Positions 38,802 to 46,428 of a stretch of DNA of 46,524 nucleotides are shown here, in pieces. Both the position numbers and the translations under genes were made by a program. The DNA is from Erysipelotrichaceae bacterium (GTDB lineage: Bacteria > Bacillota_I > Bacilli_A > Erysipelotrichales > Coprobacillaceae). The stretch spans positions 1-46,524 of the forward strand of contig JAJQFG010000052.1 of NCBI GenBank assembly GCA_021201315.1, in the 5' to 3' direction. Below the pieces are notes generated by a model. The model was not told where the DNA came from and did not search any database. It saw only the letters and a program-made list of their open reading frames with translations. Within the stretch, counting starts at the first letter, position 1, and the number at the start of each line of letters is the position of its first letter.

Positions 38802-39923
38802 ATGTCAAAAAAATTGGGATTTGGTTTAATGCGTTTACCATTAAAAGATGAAAATGATGCTGGCAATATTGATTTTGAAGAATTGAATAAAATGGTGGAT
38901 ACATTTTTAGAAAGAGGTTTTACATATTTTGATACAGCGTGGATGTATTGTAAATTCAAGAGTGAAGAAGCTGTAAAGACTTGTCTTGTTGATAGACATC
39001 CTAGAGATAGTTTTACATTAACGACAAAGTTACATCATGGTTTTATTAAAACTAAAGAAGATCGTGATAAGATATTTAATGAACAAATGAAGAAAACTGG
39101 CGTAGATTATTTTGATTATTATTTTATTCATGATATTAATTCTCATAGTATTGAAGTTTATGAGAAATTGGATTGTTTTAATTGGTTGTTACAAAAGAAA
39201 GCAGAAGGATTGGTTAAACATATTGGTTTTTCATTTCATGATGGACCTGAGTTATTGGATAAAGTTTTAAGTGAACATCCTGAATTTGAAGTTGTGCAAC
39301 TTCAAATCAATTATTTGGATTGGAATAGTGCAGGTGTTCAATCAAGAAAATGTTATGAAGTAGCATGCAAATACAATAAACCTGTGATTGTTATGGAACC
39401 TGTTAAAGGTGGTACTTTAGCTCAAATTCCAGAAACTGTGGAAAATAAAATGAAAGCATATAATCCTGATGCTTCTATCCCATCTTGGGCTATTCGTTTT
39501 GTGGCTAGTTTAGATAATGTTAAGCTTGTTTTAAGTGGTATGAGTAATTACGATCAATTATTGGATAATACTTCTTATATGCAAGATTTTAAACCTTTAA
39601 ATGATGAAGAATATAAGCTTATTGATGAAGCTGTAGAAGCTATAAATGCCAATATTACAGTACCATGTACAGGATGTTCTTATTGCACAGAAGGTTGTCC
39701 AATGAATATTAATATTCCTAAATATTTCTCATTATATAATGCAGATCTACAAGAAGTAGAAACAAAAGGCTGGACACCTCAAGGTGAATACTATGCTAAT
39801 TTAACTAAAACATTTGGTAAAGCTAGCGATTGTATTCAATGCGGTCAATGTGAAGGTGTATGTCCACAACATTTGACGATTATTGATTACTTGCAGGATG
39901 TTGCTGCTCATTTTGAAGGATAG
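38802..39923 (+). CDS. Aldo/keto reductase with C-terminal two-cluster ferredoxin domain
   Basis: Seen: 373 residues. The AKR barrel has GFGLMRLPL at the start, FDTAWMY with the catalytic Tyr (about 48), TTKLHH (Lys) and YFIHDIN with the His. The C-terminal region (about 285-365) has two 4Fe-4S motifs, CTGCSYCTEGCP and CIQCGQCEGVCP. Family knowledge: this ferredoxin-fused AKR group is common in anaerobes, and its substrates are mostly unknown. Inference: an electron-transfer step links the clusters to the NAD(P)H reaction. It is divergent from marR and probably regulated by it. RBS GGAGGG; the next gene begins 2 bases after the stop. Confidence 0.9.
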   Translation: MSKKLGFGLMRLPLKDENDAGNIDFEELNKMVDTFLERGFTYFDTAWMYCKFKSEEAVKTCLVDRHPRDSFTLTTKLHHGFIKTKEDRDKIFNEQMKKTGVDYFDYYFIHDINSHSIEVYEKLDCFNWLLQKKAEGLVKHIGFSFHDGPELLDKVLSEHPEFEVVQLQINYLDWNSAGVQSRKCYEVACKYNKPVIVMEPVKGGTLAQIPETVENKMKAYNPDASIPSWAIRFVASLDNVKLVLSGMSNYDQLLDNTSYMQDFKPLNDEEYKLIDEAVEAINANITVPCTGCSYCTEGCPMNINIPKYFSLYNADLQEVETKGWTPQGEYYANLTKTFGKASDCIQCGQCEGVCPQHLTIIDYLQDVAAHFEG

Positions 39924-40471: not shown

Positions 40472-40494
40472 AAAAGCAGGAATTCCTGCTTTTT
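40471..40494. terminator. Bidirectional terminator between kinase and tetR-family genes
   Basis: Perfect 10-bp stem AAAAAGCAGG/CCTGCTTTTT, loop AATT; the genes converge here. Confidence 0.88.
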
Positions 40495-41044
40495 AAAATG
40501 TATTCTTATAAATTTGACGAAAACATAACATTGTAAATTCTTTAACATCATAATCACAATCATGGTTGATCCAATGATTCACTAAACCCAGATGCCCATA
40601 GACCATATATATCCTATTATATTCTTCTTCTTTGGTAGTTGTCGGATAAATTTGTGGTGGGAAAAAGCCCTCTGCTATTGTATCGTGACAACGAAGTTGA
40701 AATCTAGCATCACCATAAGGTCCTAATAAAACTTTGGCAGTATCCTTATTTTCTTTTAAATAATTAAATATTTTTAACATGATAGGATGAGGTTCATTAA
40801 GATAATGAGCATTGGGTGGATAGGTGAAATATTGTGAAGTAATAGCACGTAAATTATTGAAAAAATCATCTTCAATTTCCTGTAGTACAGAAAATATAGA
40901 ATCATAGTATAAATAAAAAGTACTTCGGCTTATATGCAAAGCTTGAGTGACCTGGGTAACTTTAATAGCATAGACATTTTTGTTCTTCATTTGCTCTAAT
41001 AATTCATTTTGAATGGCTTTTCTAGTGTCTTTCATATACATCAT
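40493..41044 (-). CDS. TetR family transcriptional regulator
   Basis: Seen: 183 residues with an N-terminal TetR helix-turn-helix (KVTQVTQALHISRSTFYLYY, about 28-47) and a divergent all-helical ligand domain (TetR_C-like, with FNYLKENKDTAKVLLGPYGD, a pattern seen in the AcrR/DhaS-type group). Family knowledge: a repressor released by a small ligand. It is divergent from the thiolase-ACP-acyl kinase operon and is its probable regulator; the ligand could be an acyl-CoA or acyl-ACP-derived compound, which is inference. Start uncertain: ATG 41044, 41041 or 41035 are all close to an AGAAAGA ribosome site. Confidence 0.88.
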   Translation of the reverse strand: MMYMKDTRKAIQNELLEQMKNKNVYAIKVTQVTQALHISRSTFYLYYDSIFSVLQEIEDDFFNNLRAITSQYFTYPPNAHYLNEPHPIMLKIFNYLKENKDTAKVLLGPYGDARFQLRCHDTIAEGFFPPQIYPTTTKEEEYNRIYMVYGHLGLVNHWINHDCDYDVKEFTMLCFRQIYKNTF

Positions 41045-41093
41045 TCTTTCTTTTTCTTATTATATCTAATAATTATTTTGAAAAATAGGCTAA

Positions 41094-41127
41094 AATAGAC
41101 AGTTTTTATTAAACTGTCTATTTTTTT
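41094..41127 (+). terminator. Terminator-like hairpin in the leader of the thiolase operon
   Basis: Perfect 12-bp stem AATAGACAGTTT/AAACTGTCTATT with loop TTATT, then a T run to 41127. It sits between the divergent tetR gene and the operon, where no plus-strand gene needs ending. It may be an attenuator or a palindromic operator. Confidence 0.6.
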
Positions 41128-41213: not shown

Positions 41214-42509
41214 ATGAACCAGACAAAATTAAATAAGTATTCACGTAGTGTCTCTATCATAGGTGTTGGCTGCACACCATTTATGTACACTGTGGATAAT
41301 GAAGAAACAAATGGATTAACTGAAGGAGAATTATTTGGTTATGCAGCATTAAAAGCTATGGAGGATGCTGGTGTTGAACCAAAAGATGTAGATTTTTATT
41401 TCCATGGTGAAGCCAGTCCATTAAATTCTTCTAATTACATTACTCCAAATATGCAAGTTGCTAATTGGTTTGGTATGAAGGGAAAAGGATCTATTCACCA
41501 TAGCGAGGCTTGTTGTACAGGTTATTTGGCTTTGGAACAAGCAGTTAATGCAGTAGCATCAGGAAAGTATAATTGTGTTTTATCAGGATGCGTTGAATTT
41601 GGTGATAGTGTATGTGTTGAGGATCATCCTTATAAACGTGAAAAGTTAGAAATGGGTAAATTCCTAGAAACGACAAAGTGGATTTATGATCGTTGTTATA
41701 CACGACAAATGATGACAGGGTCTACAATTTGTTTTGATGATGCTGCTCAAGCTTATGCTTTGAAATATCATTTAACTGATCAACAAATTGATGATACTTT
41801 AAATCATATGTCTATTAATAATCGCCGTAATGCAGCTAAAGATCCATTAGCATTAGAAAGAAGAGAATATGCTGATCTTGCGAAAGAAGCAGGCTTTGAT
41901 GATGTAATGGATTATATGCGTTCACCTTATAATCCTAAAATGGGTGATTATTTAAGAGTTGGTGGCATGGAATTAAAATGTGATGGTGCTGCAGCTGTTA
42001 TTGTTTGTGCTACGGATATGGTTGAAGAATTAACACATGGAAAAGTTAAACCTATTGAAGTTTTAGGTATTGGTTCATCTGCATTAGAAGGTAATACACC
42101 TCATTTGGAAATCGAAGGAACAAAAGAAGCTGTTAGACAGGTTTATGAAATAACAGGTGTAAAACCTGATGAAATTGATTTATTCTATGCTAATGATTTT
42201 ATCATTACTTCTCATTTGATTGCAGCTGAAATTGCAGGTTATTTACCTGAAGGCGAAGGATGGAAATATGTTTGTGAAGGTAGAACTGCTTATGATGGTG
42301 ATAAGCCTATTAATACAAACGGTGGTAGAACTTCATTTGGACATGCACATGCAGCTAGTGGTTTGGCTGATATATATGAAGCTGTTAAACAAATGCGTGA
42401 AGAATGTGGTGAACGTCAAGTTAAGAAATTACCAAAAACAACTATGTTAAGAGGATTTGGTGGAGGACAAAATCTTGCTGCCATTATTTTAAGAACAAAG
42501 GAAATATAG
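41214..42509 (+). CDS. Thiolase-like condensing enzyme (SCP-x/archaeal thiolase type)
   Basis: Seen: 431 residues with the thiolase fold: IIGVGCTPF at the start, nucleophile Cys100 in SEACCTGYLALEQA (like EACATG of SCP-x thiolases), and NTNGGRTSFGHAHAASG with His377 in the C-terminal half. The second catalytic cysteine of classical thiolases is missing: CxGGG is GFGGG here. Family knowledge: SCP-x/archaeal-type thiolases pair with a DUF35 protein, as encoded directly downstream, and build or split beta-ketoacyl thioesters. Inference: works with the operon's own carrier protein. RBS AAAGGAGA. It leads a seven-gene operon. Confidence 0.85.
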   Translation: MNQTKLNKYSRSVSIIGVGCTPFMYTVDNEETNGLTEGELFGYAALKAMEDAGVEPKDVDFYFHGEASPLNSSNYITPNMQVANWFGMKGKGSIHHSEACCTGYLALEQAVNAVASGKYNCVLSGCVEFGDSVCVEDHPYKREKLEMGKFLETTKWIYDRCYTRQMMTGSTICFDDAAQAYALKYHLTDQQIDDTLNHMSINNRRNAAKDPLALERREYADLAKEAGFDDVMDYMRSPYNPKMGDYLRVGGMELKCDGAAAVIVCATDMVEELTHGKVKPIEVLGIGSSALEGNTPHLEIEGTKEAVRQVYEITGVKPDEIDLFYANDFIITSHLIAAEIAGYLPEGEGWKYVCEGRTAYDGDKPINTNGGRTSFGHAHAASGLADIYEAVKQMREECGERQVKKLPKTTMLRGFGGGQNLAAIILRTKEI

Positions 42510-42519
42510 GAGGAAGCTT

Positions 42520-42933
42520 ATGAGTGTTAAATTAGAAAAAATCGTTAAAACATATTACGATGGTCTTGAAGAAGGAAAAATATTAGGACGTAAATGTAAA
42601 AGATGTGGTGCTATTGAATTCCCTCCTGTTTATGCATGCAATACTTGTGGATGCCCAGATACTGAATGGGTAGAAATCAGTGGAAAGGCAAAAATGACAT
42701 CATTAATTATGCCAGCAGTTTTATCAACAAAACCACAAAATAATGATCTTATGCCTTATTGTTTTGCAACAGTTGAAATTGAAGAAGGTGCAGGCGTTAA
42801 TGCCATGGTTCAAGGTGTTTCTAAGAAAAATCGTGATGAATTAATGGCTAAATTACCAGTAGATGTACATGCTAAAATCATTCAAAGAGGCGAAGTGAAA
42901 ACTGTTATCTTTGAATTAGATGAAGGAGAATAA
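42520..42933 (+). CDS. DUF35 OB-fold protein with zinc ribbon
   Basis: Seen: 137 residues. An N-terminal rubredoxin-like ribbon has GRKCKRCGAIEFPPVYACNTCG (two CxxC pairs, about 24-45), followed by an OB-fold with YCFATVEIEEGAG, as in DUF35/ChsH2-like proteins. Family knowledge: in archaea the DUF35 protein bridges thiolase and HMG-CoA synthase and shapes a shared CoA-binding site; in PhlACB it is also part of a condensing complex. Inference: partner of the upstream thiolase, where it may help position CoA or the carrier arm. RBS TAGGAGGAA. It ends 1 base before the ACP gene. Confidence 0.88.
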   Translation: MSVKLEKIVKTYYDGLEEGKILGRKCKRCGAIEFPPVYACNTCGCPDTEWVEISGKAKMTSLIMPAVLSTKPQNNDLMPYCFATVEIEEGAGVNAMVQGVSKKNRDELMAKLPVDVHAKIIQRGEVKTVIFELDEGE

Positions 42934-42934
42934 T

Positions 42935-43174
42935 ATGGAAAGAAATGAAATAGCAGACAAAGTATTAGAATGTGTTAGTATTACATATAAAAAAGATATC
43001 AATGAATTATCTTTAGAAACATCTTTTAAAGACGATTTGGGTGGTGCTTCAATTTTAATGGTTGGTTTAGTATCTTTAATTGAAAATGAATTGGACGTTT
43101 TGGTGGATTTACCAACAGCATCTCAATGTAAAAATATTAATGAACTAGTAGATAAAGTTGAAGAACTTTTATAA
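42935..43174 (+). CDS. Dedicated acyl carrier protein
   Basis: Seen: 79 residues, acidic and helical, with the phosphopantetheine site at Ser39 in DDLGGASILMVGLVSLIE. The usual DSL is ASI, so the Asp before the serine is lost. Family knowledge: ACPs carry acyl chains on a 4'-phosphopantetheine arm added by AcpS, whose gene is in this operon. The divergent site may explain why the operon has its own AcpS. Start: ATG 42935 lies 5 bases after AAGGAGAA; a longer in-frame ATG at 42920 lies inside the previous gene. This is not the fatty-acid-synthesis AcpP by context. Confidence 0.87.
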   Translation: MERNEIADKVLECVSITYKKDINELSLETSFKDDLGGASILMVGLVSLIENELDVLVDLPTASQCKNINELVDKVEELL

Positions 43175-43185
43175 CAGGATGAATT

Positions 43186-44190
43186 ATGAGTGTTTTAGAT
43201 AATATATATGCGAAAGCAAAAGTAAATCCTCAAAAAGTAGCATTTCCAGAAGCAGAAAACGAAAAAATGATGCAAGCTGCTTATGAAACAGGTAAGGATG
43301 GTTACATCCTTCCTGTCTTAATAGGCGATGCATCAAGAATTAAGGAATTATGTCACGAAAGAGGATATGATATCAATGTTTTTGAGATTATTGATATTAA
43401 TGATGAAGCATATAAAAATACTATAATAGATAAATATGTACACAAAGAAGGAACATTTTTAAAAGAAAAAGCTTTAAGTAGACGTATGCAAAATCCATTA
43501 TATTATGCTATGACAATGCAAGCTGTTGATGAGGTGGCAGTGACTTTCGCTGGTATTGATAATCCTACAGGTGATGTTTTATTGGCTGGTCAAATGATGA
43601 TTGGTTTAAAAGAAGGTGTTGATACAATATCAAGTATTGCTTTATGTCAAATTCCAGGATTTAAAGGTAGTGAAGGTGATTTATTAGTCTTTGGTGATAG
43701 TGCTGTTTGTACCAATCCTACTTCAAAGCAACTAGCTAATATAGCCATTGATGCTTGTGAAGAAGTAAAAGTATTATTGGACTGGGAACCTCGTTGTGCC
43801 ATGCTTTCTTATTCTACTTTAGGTAGTGGTCAAGGTGAATTGGTTGATAAAGTTAAAGAAGCCGTAAAGATAGCTAATGAGTTAAGACAAGATTTAGCTA
43901 TTGAAGGTGAATATCAATTTGATAGTGCTGTATCTTTAGAGGTGGCGCAAAAGAAAGTACCTGGAGAAAGTAAAGTAGCAGGCAAAGCTAATATTTTGAT
44001 ATGGCCAGATCTTAATGTAGGAAATATTAGTGTTAAGATTATTCAGCAATTAACTGGAGCTGATGCTTATGGACCAATGCTTCAAGGATTTAATAAGATC
44101 ATTTGTGATTGTTCAAGAGGTGCACCAGTTTCTGAAATCAAAGGTAATATTATTATTAGTGCTGTTAGAGCAAGTGGTTTAAAAAAATGA
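43186..44190 (+). CDS. Phosphate acyltransferase (Pta/Ptb family)
   Basis: Seen: 334 residues with the Pta/Ptb fold: PEAENEKMMQAAYE, LPVLIGD (about 41-47), SRRMQNPLYYA, GDSAVCTNPTSKQLANIA, PGESKVAGKANILIWPDLNVGN and a final CSRGAPVSEI. The length and the KVAGKANxLxxPDL motif are closer to phosphotransacetylase than to the shorter butyryl-specific Ptb. Family knowledge: transfers an acyl group from CoA to phosphate. Inference: with the acyl kinase that overlaps it by ATGA it makes acyl phosphate and then ATP plus acid. Whether it takes acyl-CoA or acyl-ACP is unknown. RBS AGGATGA. Confidence 0.88.
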   Translation: MSVLDNIYAKAKVNPQKVAFPEAENEKMMQAAYETGKDGYILPVLIGDASRIKELCHERGYDINVFEIIDINDEAYKNTIIDKYVHKEGTFLKEKALSRRMQNPLYYAMTMQAVDEVAVTFAGIDNPTGDVLLAGQMMIGLKEGVDTISSIALCQIPGFKGSEGDLLVFGDSAVCTNPTSKQLANIAIDACEEVKVLLDWEPRCAMLSYSTLGSGQGELVDKVKEAVKIANELRQDLAIEGEYQFDSAVSLEVAQKKVPGESKVAGKANILIWPDLNVGNISVKIIQQLTGADAYGPMLQGFNKIICDCSRGAPVSEIKGNIIISAVRASGLKK

Positions 44191-45296
44191 ATAAGTATAA
44201 AATATTAACAATCAATCCTGGTTCAACTTCTACAAAAATAGCATTGTTTGAAAATGAAACTTGTTTATTTTCTAGTAATGTTTCTCATGATGCAAATGAA
44301 TTAAATCAATTTGAAACATTAAATGATCAATTACCTTATAGACGTGATACAATATTACAATTATTGAATGAAAATCATATATCCTTAAATGATATTGATG
44401 TATTTGTTGGTAGAGGTGGAGGCCTTATTGCCATGGAAGGTGGCACCTATGAAGTTGATGATTTATTGCTAGAACATGCTCGAACTTGTGCCAATGGTGT
44501 TGTTCATCCTGCTAATCTAGGCTCACAATTAGCCTATGAATTTGCTAGTCAATATCATGCCAAAGCGATGGTAGTGAATCCCCCAGATGTTGATGAACTT
44601 CAAGATCTTGCCAGAATGACTGGTCTTAAAGATGAATATCGTATTATCCATTTACATGCCTTGAATTTAAAAGAAACAGCTATTCAGCATAGTAAAAATG
44701 TCATGAAAAAGAAATATGAAGAATGTAATTATATTGTGTGTCATATTGGTGGTGGTATTTCTATATCTGCTCATCGTAAAGGCAGAATGATTGATGGCAA
44801 TGATATTGTTGGTGGTGAGGGGCCAATGGCTCCTACAAGATGTGGTAGTTTATCTGTAGCTAATATAATATCTTTTATGGAAAATAATCATTTGACACCA
44901 AAAGATTTAAAGAAATATTGTACAAAAAATGGCGGTTTTATTGATTTAATCGGCATTTCAGATGCCATAGAATTAACAAATCGAGCCAATAATGGAGATC
45001 AATATGCCAAAATGGTATGGAATAGTATGATTTATCAAATTGAAAAATGGATTGGTTCTATGGCTGCTGTTTTACATGGTGATGTCGATGCGATATTATT
45101 GAGCGGTGGTATGGTTTATAGTGAAGATTTGGTTCAACAAATAGTTAAAACATGTAGTTTTATTGCTCCTGTTTATGTTTATCCTGGAGAATTTGAAATG
45201 GAAGCCATGGCTTCAGGAGCAATGCGTGTTTTAAATGGTGAAGAAGATTTAAAAAAATATACTGGAAAACCAATATGGGATCATTTTGATTTTTAG
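44187..45296 (+). CDS. buk: Butyrate kinase family acyl kinase
   Basis: Seen: 369 residues of the ASKHA fold: ILTINPGSTSTKIALFEN (phosphate-1 loop), VGRGGGLIAMEGGTYEVDD, HPANLGSQLAYEFA, CHIGGGISISAHRKG (about 187-201) and ILLSGGMVYSE (adenosine region). All are typical of butyrate kinase, whose usual length is about 355. Family knowledge: acyl phosphate + ADP to carboxylic acid + ATP, with butyrate or branched C4-C5 acids as substrates. The gene overlaps the phosphotransacylase by 4 bases. In this operon the true acid is unknown, so buk describes the family rather than a proven substrate. Confidence 0.9.
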   Translation: MNKYKILTINPGSTSTKIALFENETCLFSSNVSHDANELNQFETLNDQLPYRRDTILQLLNENHISLNDIDVFVGRGGGLIAMEGGTYEVDDLLLEHARTCANGVVHPANLGSQLAYEFASQYHAKAMVVNPPDVDELQDLARMTGLKDEYRIIHLHALNLKETAIQHSKNVMKKKYEECNYIVCHIGGGISISAHRKGRMIDGNDIVGGEGPMAPTRCGSLSVANIISFMENNHLTPKDLKKYCTKNGGFIDLIGISDAIELTNRANNGDQYAKMVWNSMIYQIEKWIGSMAAVLHGDVDAILLSGGMVYSEDLVQQIVKTCSFIAPVYVYPGEFEMEAMASGAMRVLNGEEDLKKYTGKPIWDHFDF

Positions 45297-45304
45297 GAGG
45301 TTAT

Positions 45305-45673
45305 ATGGTTAGAAGTATAGGTGTTGATATATGCGATACTAACGAGATAGACAGATTATTAAAATTAAAAGATAATGCTTTTATGAATCATACATTTACT
45401 CAAAAAGAAATAGTAATCGCCAAAAAACATAAAGATCAAGCGCAATATTTCGCATCTTTATTTGCAGGTAAAGAAGCAACGTTTAAAGCGTTGTCTACCT
45501 TACAGTCATCTTTTCCCATTGATTTACGAAATATTGAAATTATTAATGATATAGACGATGATCCATGTGTCAATTTAGAAATATCATTAATGAAAAGCTT
45601 ATCAATTCAACATATACTTATATCTCTTTCCTATAGTTCTCATTATACTATAGCTATGGTAATGATAGAATGA
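45305..45673 (+). CDS. acpS: Holo-ACP synthase (AcpS-type phosphopantetheinyl transferase)
   Basis: Seen: 122 residues with GVDICD (Asp8, metal site), HTFTQKEI and YFASLFAGKEATFKAL (Glu/Lys of the catalytic block), the three AcpS signature regions. The usual length is 118-126. Family knowledge: transfers phosphopantetheine from CoA to the ACP serine. AcpS is normally in another genomic place; finding it in this operon suggests it serves the ACP encoded upstream. It may also be the only AcpS of the genome, which this window cannot show. RBS TTAGGAGG. The next gene overlaps by ATGA. Confidence 0.93.
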   Translation: MVRSIGVDICDTNEIDRLLKLKDNAFMNHTFTQKEIVIAKKHKDQAQYFASLFAGKEATFKALSTLQSSFPIDLRNIEIINDIDDDPCVNLEISLMKSLSIQHILISLSYSSHYTIAMVMIE

Positions 45674-46428
45674 ATACAATCAAAATAAATCAATTCACAA
45701 TTGATTTCTACCCATTAGATAAACAAGCCCCTACTGCTATCATATTACCAGGTGGGGCTTATCTCATGATAAGTGATTTAGAAGCACAACCTATCGCATT
45801 AGAATTCCTTAAATATCATATTCAAGCAATTGTAGTAAGGTATAGTGTTGGTAATTGTACTTATCCCCTACCTTTAGAAGAATTGGATGAAACATTATGC
45901 TATATTGAAGCTAATGCAAAAGATATGAATATTGATATACATCAAATATTTGGTATAGGTTTTTCTGCAGGAGGTCATTTGCTTGCCAATTATTATACAT
46001 ATCCCTATTTTAAACGAAAATCAAAAATCATGTTAAAAGCTTTAGTACTTTGTTATAGTGTATTTGATCTTAATGATTTAAATACTGATAATATCAACTA
46101 TATTCGCTTATATGATATGATGAAAAAAAGCATTTGCACAAACCGTATTGTTACGGAAGAAAAACTTAAAGATTTATCGCCGATTAATCACATTGCCAAT
46201 ATTCCTACATTCTTATGGCATACAACGAATGATGATATAGTCGATTGTAATCAAAGTATCAATTATGCATTAGAGTTATCAAAAAAACAAATCCCTTTTG
46301 AATTACATGTTTTCCCTAATGGTCAACATGGTTTAGCATTAGCACAAGATGATGATTGTATAAAAATTTGGTTTCATTTAATGATTCATTTTGTCAATAA
46401 ATACATGAATGAACAAGATGATTTCTAA
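45670..46428 (+). CDS. Alpha/beta hydrolase, acetyl-esterase/BD-FAE-like
   Basis: Seen: 252 residues with the oxyanion block ILPGGAYLMISD (about 25-36), nucleophile Ser in GFSAGGH (about 98-104), acid Asp in TTNDDIVD and His in PNGQHGLAL. This is the catalytic triad order of acetyl esterase/BD-FAE-type hydrolases; there is no signal peptide. It overlaps acpS by 4 bases and is the last gene before a terminator. Inference: it could release a product from the carrier protein as a thioesterase, or hydrolyse an ester substrate that feeds the operon. Substrate not assignable. Confidence 0.85.
   Translation: MNTIKINQFTIDFYPLDKQAPTAIILPGGAYLMISDLEAQPIALEFLKYHIQAIVVRYSVGNCTYPLPLEELDETLCYIEANAKDMNIDIHQIFGIGFSAGGHLLANYYTYPYFKRKSKIMLKALVLCYSVFDLNDLNTDNINYIRLYDMMKKSICTNRIVTEEKLKDLSPINHIANIPTFLWHTTNDDIVDCNQSINYALELSKKQIPFELHVFPNGQHGLALAQDDDCIKIWFHLMIHFVNKYMNEQDDF

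Follow-up and report, generated by a model that had tools for sequence, protein, structure and literature searches.

The window analysed here is a stretch of 46,524 nucleotides from an Erysipelotrichaceae bacterium, and close to its end lies an operon that encodes, in order, a thiolase-superfamily enzyme, its DUF35 partner, an acyl carrier protein (ACP), a phosphotransacylase (PTA), an acyl kinase, an AcpS-type phosphopantetheinyl transferase and an esterase (Table 1). All genes were re-called from the sequence at the coordinates of the initial annotation and each was matched to a family, which bears out the gene list, the coordinates, the tight packing and the divergent tetR gene reported there. 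From thiolase to esterase the intergenic gaps are 10, 1, 11, -4, 8 and -4 bases (the last being a 4-base overlap of the esterase with the AcpS gene), and dN/dS lies between 0.02 and 0.29 in each gene tested against the close relatives L015 and L016; all seven genes are genuine, intact and closely spaced, and purifying selection acts on them. The longest open reading frame of the ACP gene begins at 42920, and the 79-residue call at 42935. Of the zinc-ribbon/OB architecture first proposed for the DUF35 protein, the zinc ribbon is recovered by its family match, while the OB half reaches only 0.017 with PF01796, under the cut-off. The TetR-family regulator is likely to control the operon, and the inverted repeat upstream of the thiolase gene is likely its operator; the repeat occurs once in the window and in none of the shuffled sequences, and L016 carries an inverted repeat with identical arms. 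Also upstream of the operon, at 38802-39923 of the window, is an aldo/keto reductase with a fused C-terminal 4Fe-4S domain, which adjoins the operon in L016 too.

Table 1. Genes and putative operator of the thiolase-ACP operon and its divergent regulator.
Feature	Coordinates	Strand	Evidence
TetR-family regulator, divergent	40493..41044	-	PF14278 2.2e-13
Perfect inverted repeat, 14+14 with 5-base spacer	41092..41124	.	AAAATAGACAGTTT-N5-AAACTGTCTATTTT, between divergent TetR and thiolase genes
Thiolase-superfamily enzyme, 431 aa	41214..42509	+	PF22691 (Thiolase_C_1) 6.7e-30; Cys100 nucleophile in ACCTG; His377 in GHAHAAS
DUF35 partner, 137 aa: zinc ribbon (four Cys) and diverged OB domain	42520..42933	+	PF12172 (zf-ChsH2) 7.7e-7
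Dedicated acyl carrier protein, 79 aa, Ser kept, ASI in place of DSL	42935..43174	+	PF00550 (PP-binding) 3.3e-8
Phosphotransacylase, PTA_PTB fold, predicted acyl-ACP specific	43186..44190	+	PF01515 3.5e-84
Butyrate-kinase-family acyl kinase (BUK), 369 aa	44187..45296	+	TIGR02707 389.9 bits, cut-off 289.1
AcpS-type phosphopantetheinyl transferase, 122 aa	45305..45673	+	TIGR00516 69.6 bits, cut-off 59.8
Alpha/beta hydrolase, lp_1002-like arylesterase	45670..46428	+	BD-FAE 6e-18; NF052620 4.8e-36, below cut-off

The enzyme at the head of the operon has the features of DUF35-partnered thiolases, namely the thiolase fold, a Cys nucleophile, a C-terminal His and a DUF35 partner with a four-Cys zinc ribbon, and its Cys100, Asp328 and His377 are invariant across 30 relatives. 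The solved structure nearest to its AlphaFold model (pLDDT 87.8) is the Pyrococcus thiolase 7yvy (Z 47.0), followed by the archaeal acetoacetyl-CoA thiolase 6esq/6et9 (Z 46.5 for 6esq); benzoylsuccinyl-CoA thiolase, the acyltransferases MucABC and PhlABC and the aldolases Sal and Ltp2 are also near. Several of these enzymes work with a DUF35 partner. Within this group some enzymes act on thioesters and others on C-acyl phenols (PMC6392133), so that the fold does not fix the substrate. The beta-ketoacyl thioester intermediate originally envisaged is one possibility among others, a free C-acyl or diketone substrate being equally possible. The kinase is close to butyrate kinase 2 (1x9j, E 3e-94), and its placement in the butyrate kinase family holds for the window but not for the archaeal clusters, in which the corresponding gene encodes a true acetate kinase. 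The ACP keeps the acceptor Ser in all aligned family members, and the Asp preceding it is absent throughout the family, so the altered motif already noticed in the window protein is a family-wide trait. The window genome also holds a FASII-type ACP with a normal DSL motif, and the local AcpS is an extra copy, because a second AcpS is encoded at G000:C5:32878.

A scan limited to one genome per species returned 57 loci, distributed over Lachnospiraceae, Oscillospiraceae, Erysipelotrichaceae, Streptococcus ovis and its relatives, Coriobacteriia, an HGW actinobacterium, and Micrarchaeota or other archaea. The conserved seven-gene order initially expected was not found across these loci; what is conserved is a five-gene core, thiolase-DUF35-ACP-PTA-kinase, that recurs over Bacillota and Actinomycetota and is found in Micrarchaeota with AcpS and acetate kinase. 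The esterase is confined to close relatives, and only some loci have AcpS directly alongside, a phosphopantetheinyl transferase lying within the fetched stretch in at least 18 of the 57. The ACP, identified by a family HMM, adjoins thiolase-DUF35 at 52 of the 54 loci whose contigs were long enough to look, the other two being L044 and L049; the L049 transacylase is of the Ptb type and keeps R133. Gene fusions join thiolase to DUF35 (L074, L032 and L044) and DUF35 to ACP (L072 and L073), and together they tie the ACP directly to the thiolase partner. The module is accessory: in the order to which G062 belongs, a window-like PTA (69-71% identity) was found in two of 116 genomes, the remaining matches being of 30-38% identity, plus one 49% fragment.

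Several loci depart from this arrangement or add to it. At L044:7965-9755 a thiolase-DUF35 fusion stands with ACP, PTA and kinase absent nearby and forms an exception to the module, and at L061:6235-9984 a divergent tandem duplication has given the order thiolase-DUF35-thiolase-DUF35-ACP, with two further PTAs and a kinase nearby. Paralogous ACP-kinase modules, sometimes with a PTA but with no thiolase, lie beside Peptidase_S15-like hydrolases or MFS genes at L072:3013-4421, L073:3415-4802 and L075:5420-8035, suggesting that ACP-acyl-phosphate cassettes have been redeployed behind other front-end enzymes. Families of about 390, 160 and 446 residues adjoin several clusters (F13 at L030:6803-8002, F19 at L033:3311-3793 and F40 at L054:5731-7068); no significant Pfam match was found for these three neighbour families or for a fourth, F93.

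The strongest evidence on the carrier comes from the transacylase. In the crystal structure of the Porphyromonas gingivalis enzyme (PgPta) Arg89 touches the 3'-phosphate of CoA and Arg135 the beta-phosphate, and the catalytic cleft is formed by Asp309, Ser311, Arg312 and Asp318 (PMC6461089); these six residues correspond to R87, R133, D307, S309, R310 and D316 of the Methanosarcina thermophila enzyme, whose numbering is used below. R87 and R133 are both absent from all 41 full-length bacterial operon PTAs, which have P/E/S/T and L/A/F/M there, and both present in 28 of 28 canonical PTAs, a set in which ten come from genomes that carry a cluster and 17 from other Lachnospirales, and which excludes the canonical L139, a degenerate sequence in which the catalytic arginine is also lost. 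Asp307, Ser309 and Arg310 are kept in both groups and position 316 is acidic, being Glu in 41/41 operon enzymes. In the window PTA, Glu88 and Leu133 replace the CoA-phosphate arginines, and Asp308, Ser310, Arg311 and Glu317 are kept. Eighteen alignment columns separate the two classes, and in five of them a conserved basic residue is swapped (R28, R87, R133, K140 and R287). The archaeal and HGW enzymes likewise have no R133, and an Arg near position 87 may persist in them, depending on the alignment. In the PTA tree the canonical enzymes make up a supported clade that sits inside the arginine-less set, so the arginine pattern is a correlation between clades in which loss and gain are not distinguishable.

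Holo-ACP has neither a 3'-phosphate nor a diphosphate, and the absence of the arginines therefore fits ACP as the thiol substrate. The operon transacylase seems to use ACP in place of CoA, and since it lacks the residues that grip CoA, the chain as a whole seems to run on its own carrier. On the other hand, mutants of PgPta in the two CoA-phosphate arginines lose only 58% and 21% of activity (PMC6461089), so the operon enzyme may still use CoA. The earlier proposal of a dedicated carrier within a self-contained pathway is strengthened by a gene set that several phyla, from two domains of life, have in common, by the fusions and by a transacylase without CoA-phosphate arginines.

The operon PTA is the only PTA_PTB protein in the window genome, where PduL and three acetate kinases are also encoded. 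PduL occurs in five genomes, among them the operon-free sister G003, which has no close thiolase match, and other cluster-bearing genomes have separate canonical PTAs. Because PduL is present even in the sister without the operon, the operon enzyme is, on the sequence evidence, not the housekeeping phosphotransacetylase; nor is it the sole phosphotransacetylase of its genome, PduL being found in both the window genome and G003, and a housekeeping Pta was ruled out on this ground. Two circumstances had been named as speaking against the original reading, namely genes that are not neighbours in related genomes, and an ACP left unmodified by the local AcpS together with a transacylase that acts only on acetyl-CoA as an ordinary housekeeping enzyme; as far as sequence tells neither holds, given the conserved core, PduL and the separate canonical PTAs.

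The archaeal clusters were compared in four genomes of 0.9-1.8 Mb (G070, G072, G073 and G074), all of them metagenome bins and possibly incomplete. In each bin the cluster ACP is the sole PP-binding protein found, and the cluster PTA, AcpS and acetate kinase are each the sole member of their family found. Because no other PP-binding protein was found in these bins, the archaeal ACP most likely serves no fatty acid synthase and most likely works with the products of the neighbouring genes. HMG-CoA synthase scores over the cut-off in all four genomes, and three of them have a separate canonical thiolase.

Clues to the substrate come from the neighbours of sister clusters, among which an FMN reductase family, an FAD_binding_2 reductase, an NADH/Fe-S module, a PucR-type regulator and lactate-family (monocarboxylate-type) MFS transporters recur. 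The sole solved relative of the FMN reductase family is flavone reductase (FLR; 7d38, a code given in PMC7862272), and about 16 of 22 full-length relatives, by our count, lie within ~20 kb of a cluster; for the FAD_binding_2 reductase the best NCBIfam model, below its cut-off, is vinyl phenol reductase. In the L029 cluster a PhlG-domain gene sits between ACP and PTA. This gene within the thiolase-ACP cluster, at L029:10131-11537, is one of four with a PhlG/phloretin-hydrolase domain in the genome concerned (G075), a small Eubacterium MAG of 1.4 Mb. Most cluster genomes with the FMN reductase have no PhlG/Phy gene, which is expected if the cluster performs that step. Taken together, these neighbours suggest flavonoid-type or acylphloroglucinol-type plant phenolics as substrates of the sister clusters, and this is the best lead. 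The flavone-reductase relative is absent from the window genome, the streptococci and Micrarchaeota, so the lead covers only part of the family. In the window genome no PF18089 match was found and FMN_red matches were only weak and short; with FLR and PhlG absent from that genome, a flavonoid substrate in the window organism was rejected. The Clostridium scatologenes phloroglucinol pathway (PMC10470551) was set aside as well, since the window cluster showed neither its cyclohydrolase nor its TAL genes. The neighbour families covered by the scan included no synthase that uses ACP, no ketoreductase and no dehydratase, and this, along with the flavone-reductase-like, FAD reductase, NADH-module and transporter neighbours and the PhlG-type hydrolase, makes us lean towards a catabolic role.

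In the textbook view, ATP formation by a phosphotransacylase and a kinase is a CoA process. We propose that in this operon a dedicated acyl carrier protein stands in for CoA along a short thiolase-to-ATP chain that conserves energy, a proposal whose chances we put at about even. AcpS would prime the ACP; thiolase-DUF35 would take the acyl group through Cys100, breaking the C-C bond beside a carbonyl in a reaction of the retro-Claisen or retro-Friedel-Crafts type, and would hand it to the phosphopantetheine thiol of the ACP; the transacylase would move the acyl group from ACP to phosphate, giving acyl-phosphate and releasing holo-ACP; and the butyrate-kinase-family enzyme, or acetate kinase in the archaea, would use acyl-phosphate and ADP to give the acid and ATP. 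The ACP would thus be the thiol substrate of the thiolase as well as of the transacylase. The ATP-yielding direction is favoured, with less assurance. In its most specific form the proposal is tentative, and we hold it with less than even confidence: CoA-free substrate-level phosphorylation in bacteria and DPANN archaea, in which thiolase-DUF35 would cleave a beta-diketone or C-acyl compound onto a private ACP, the acyl group then yielding ATP; in gut members the compound would be a dihydrochalcone-like plant phenolic, and the enzyme would replace phloretin hydrolase.

The main rival, somewhat unlikely in our judgement, is the same chain run in reverse, in which the kinase would activate an acid with ATP, the transacylase would load the ACP and thiolase-DUF35 would C-acylate an acceptor, like PhlACB, or build a beta-ketoacyl product. 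Every step is reversible in principle, and the FakAB/PlsX route, in which an acid passes through acyl-phosphate onto ACP, is a precedent for such loading; close structural relatives include acyltransferases of the PhlC type and MucABC, and monocarboxylate-type MFS transporters lie near several clusters. However, the neighbours scanned, which are reductases and transporters and not tailoring enzymes, include no recurrent ACP-using synthase, ketoreductase or thioesterase that would act downstream, and nothing else with an ACP was found in the archaea. Both directions put ACP in the place of CoA, and this is the new element. We consider it improbable that the operon is an ordinary CoA-dependent acid fermentation chain of thiolase, Pta and Buk with an unrelated or regulatory ACP and AcpS: the PTA, with its normal fold and catalytic residues, is indeed the only PTA_PTB protein of the window genome, but PduL covers the housekeeping step, the CoA-phosphate arginines are absent, and the ACP is fused to DUF35 and adjoins it with the thiolase at nearly all assessable loci. 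Most improbable of all would be the supply of acetoacetyl-ACP for fatty acid or mevalonate synthesis; the thiolase fold is nearest to archaeal acetoacetyl-CoA thiolases, but no other ACP was found in the four archaeal genomes, and in the window genome a separate FASII-type ACP with a DSL motif is present. Fatty acid priming was rejected for the former reason, and a mevalonate role in the archaea is weakened by their separate thiolase (3/4 genomes) and HMG-CoA synthase (4/4).

If ACP does stand in for CoA in a thiolase-to-ATP chain, this would be a new carrier logic for fermentation, would account for the retention of an ACP and AcpS by reduced archaea that lack fatty acid synthesis, and may reveal a way in which plant phenolics supply gut and rumen bacteria with energy. 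Given the residue pattern, the claim is open to a direct test with a few purified proteins. A full-text search of the open-access literature found no description of this gene set, and its parts can be set against several known systems. Pta-AckA and phosphotransbutyrylase-butyrate kinase resemble the operon in fold, catalytic residues and the step from acyl-phosphate to ATP, whereas the operon has no CoA-phosphate arginines, has a dedicated ACP next door and stands apart from the housekeeping enzyme. The C-acyltransferases PhlACB and MucABC, composed of thiolase, DUF35 and a KAS-III-like subunit, share the thiolase-DUF35 pair and the conserved Cys and His and move acyl groups between C-C bonded substrates without CoA; the window cluster, by comparison, has no gene for the KAS-III-like PhlA and adds ACP, transacylase and kinase. 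The archaeal acetoacetyl-CoA thiolase-DUF35-HMG-CoA synthase complex and BbsAB are among the nearest solved folds (Z 45-47), but these are CoA users, and the operon thiolase has GHA(H/F)xAS in place of GHPVGATG and no HMG-CoA synthase partner. FakAB-PlsX likewise interchanges acyl-phosphate and ACP, although the operon uses neither the PlsX nor the Fak families and its acyl groups are likely short or aryl. Citrate lyase and malonate decarboxylase are likewise catabolic with a dedicated acyl-carrying ACP, but they rely on a special prosthetic group and have no acyl-phosphate/ATP step, whereas the operon has a plain AcpS. Finally, the flavone reductase-phloretin hydrolase pathway, known from flavonoid degraders, is represented beside some sister clusters by proteins related to FLR and to the PhlG/Phy fold; that pathway is hydrolytic and brings no energy gain, and the thiolase-ACP set may replace Phy.
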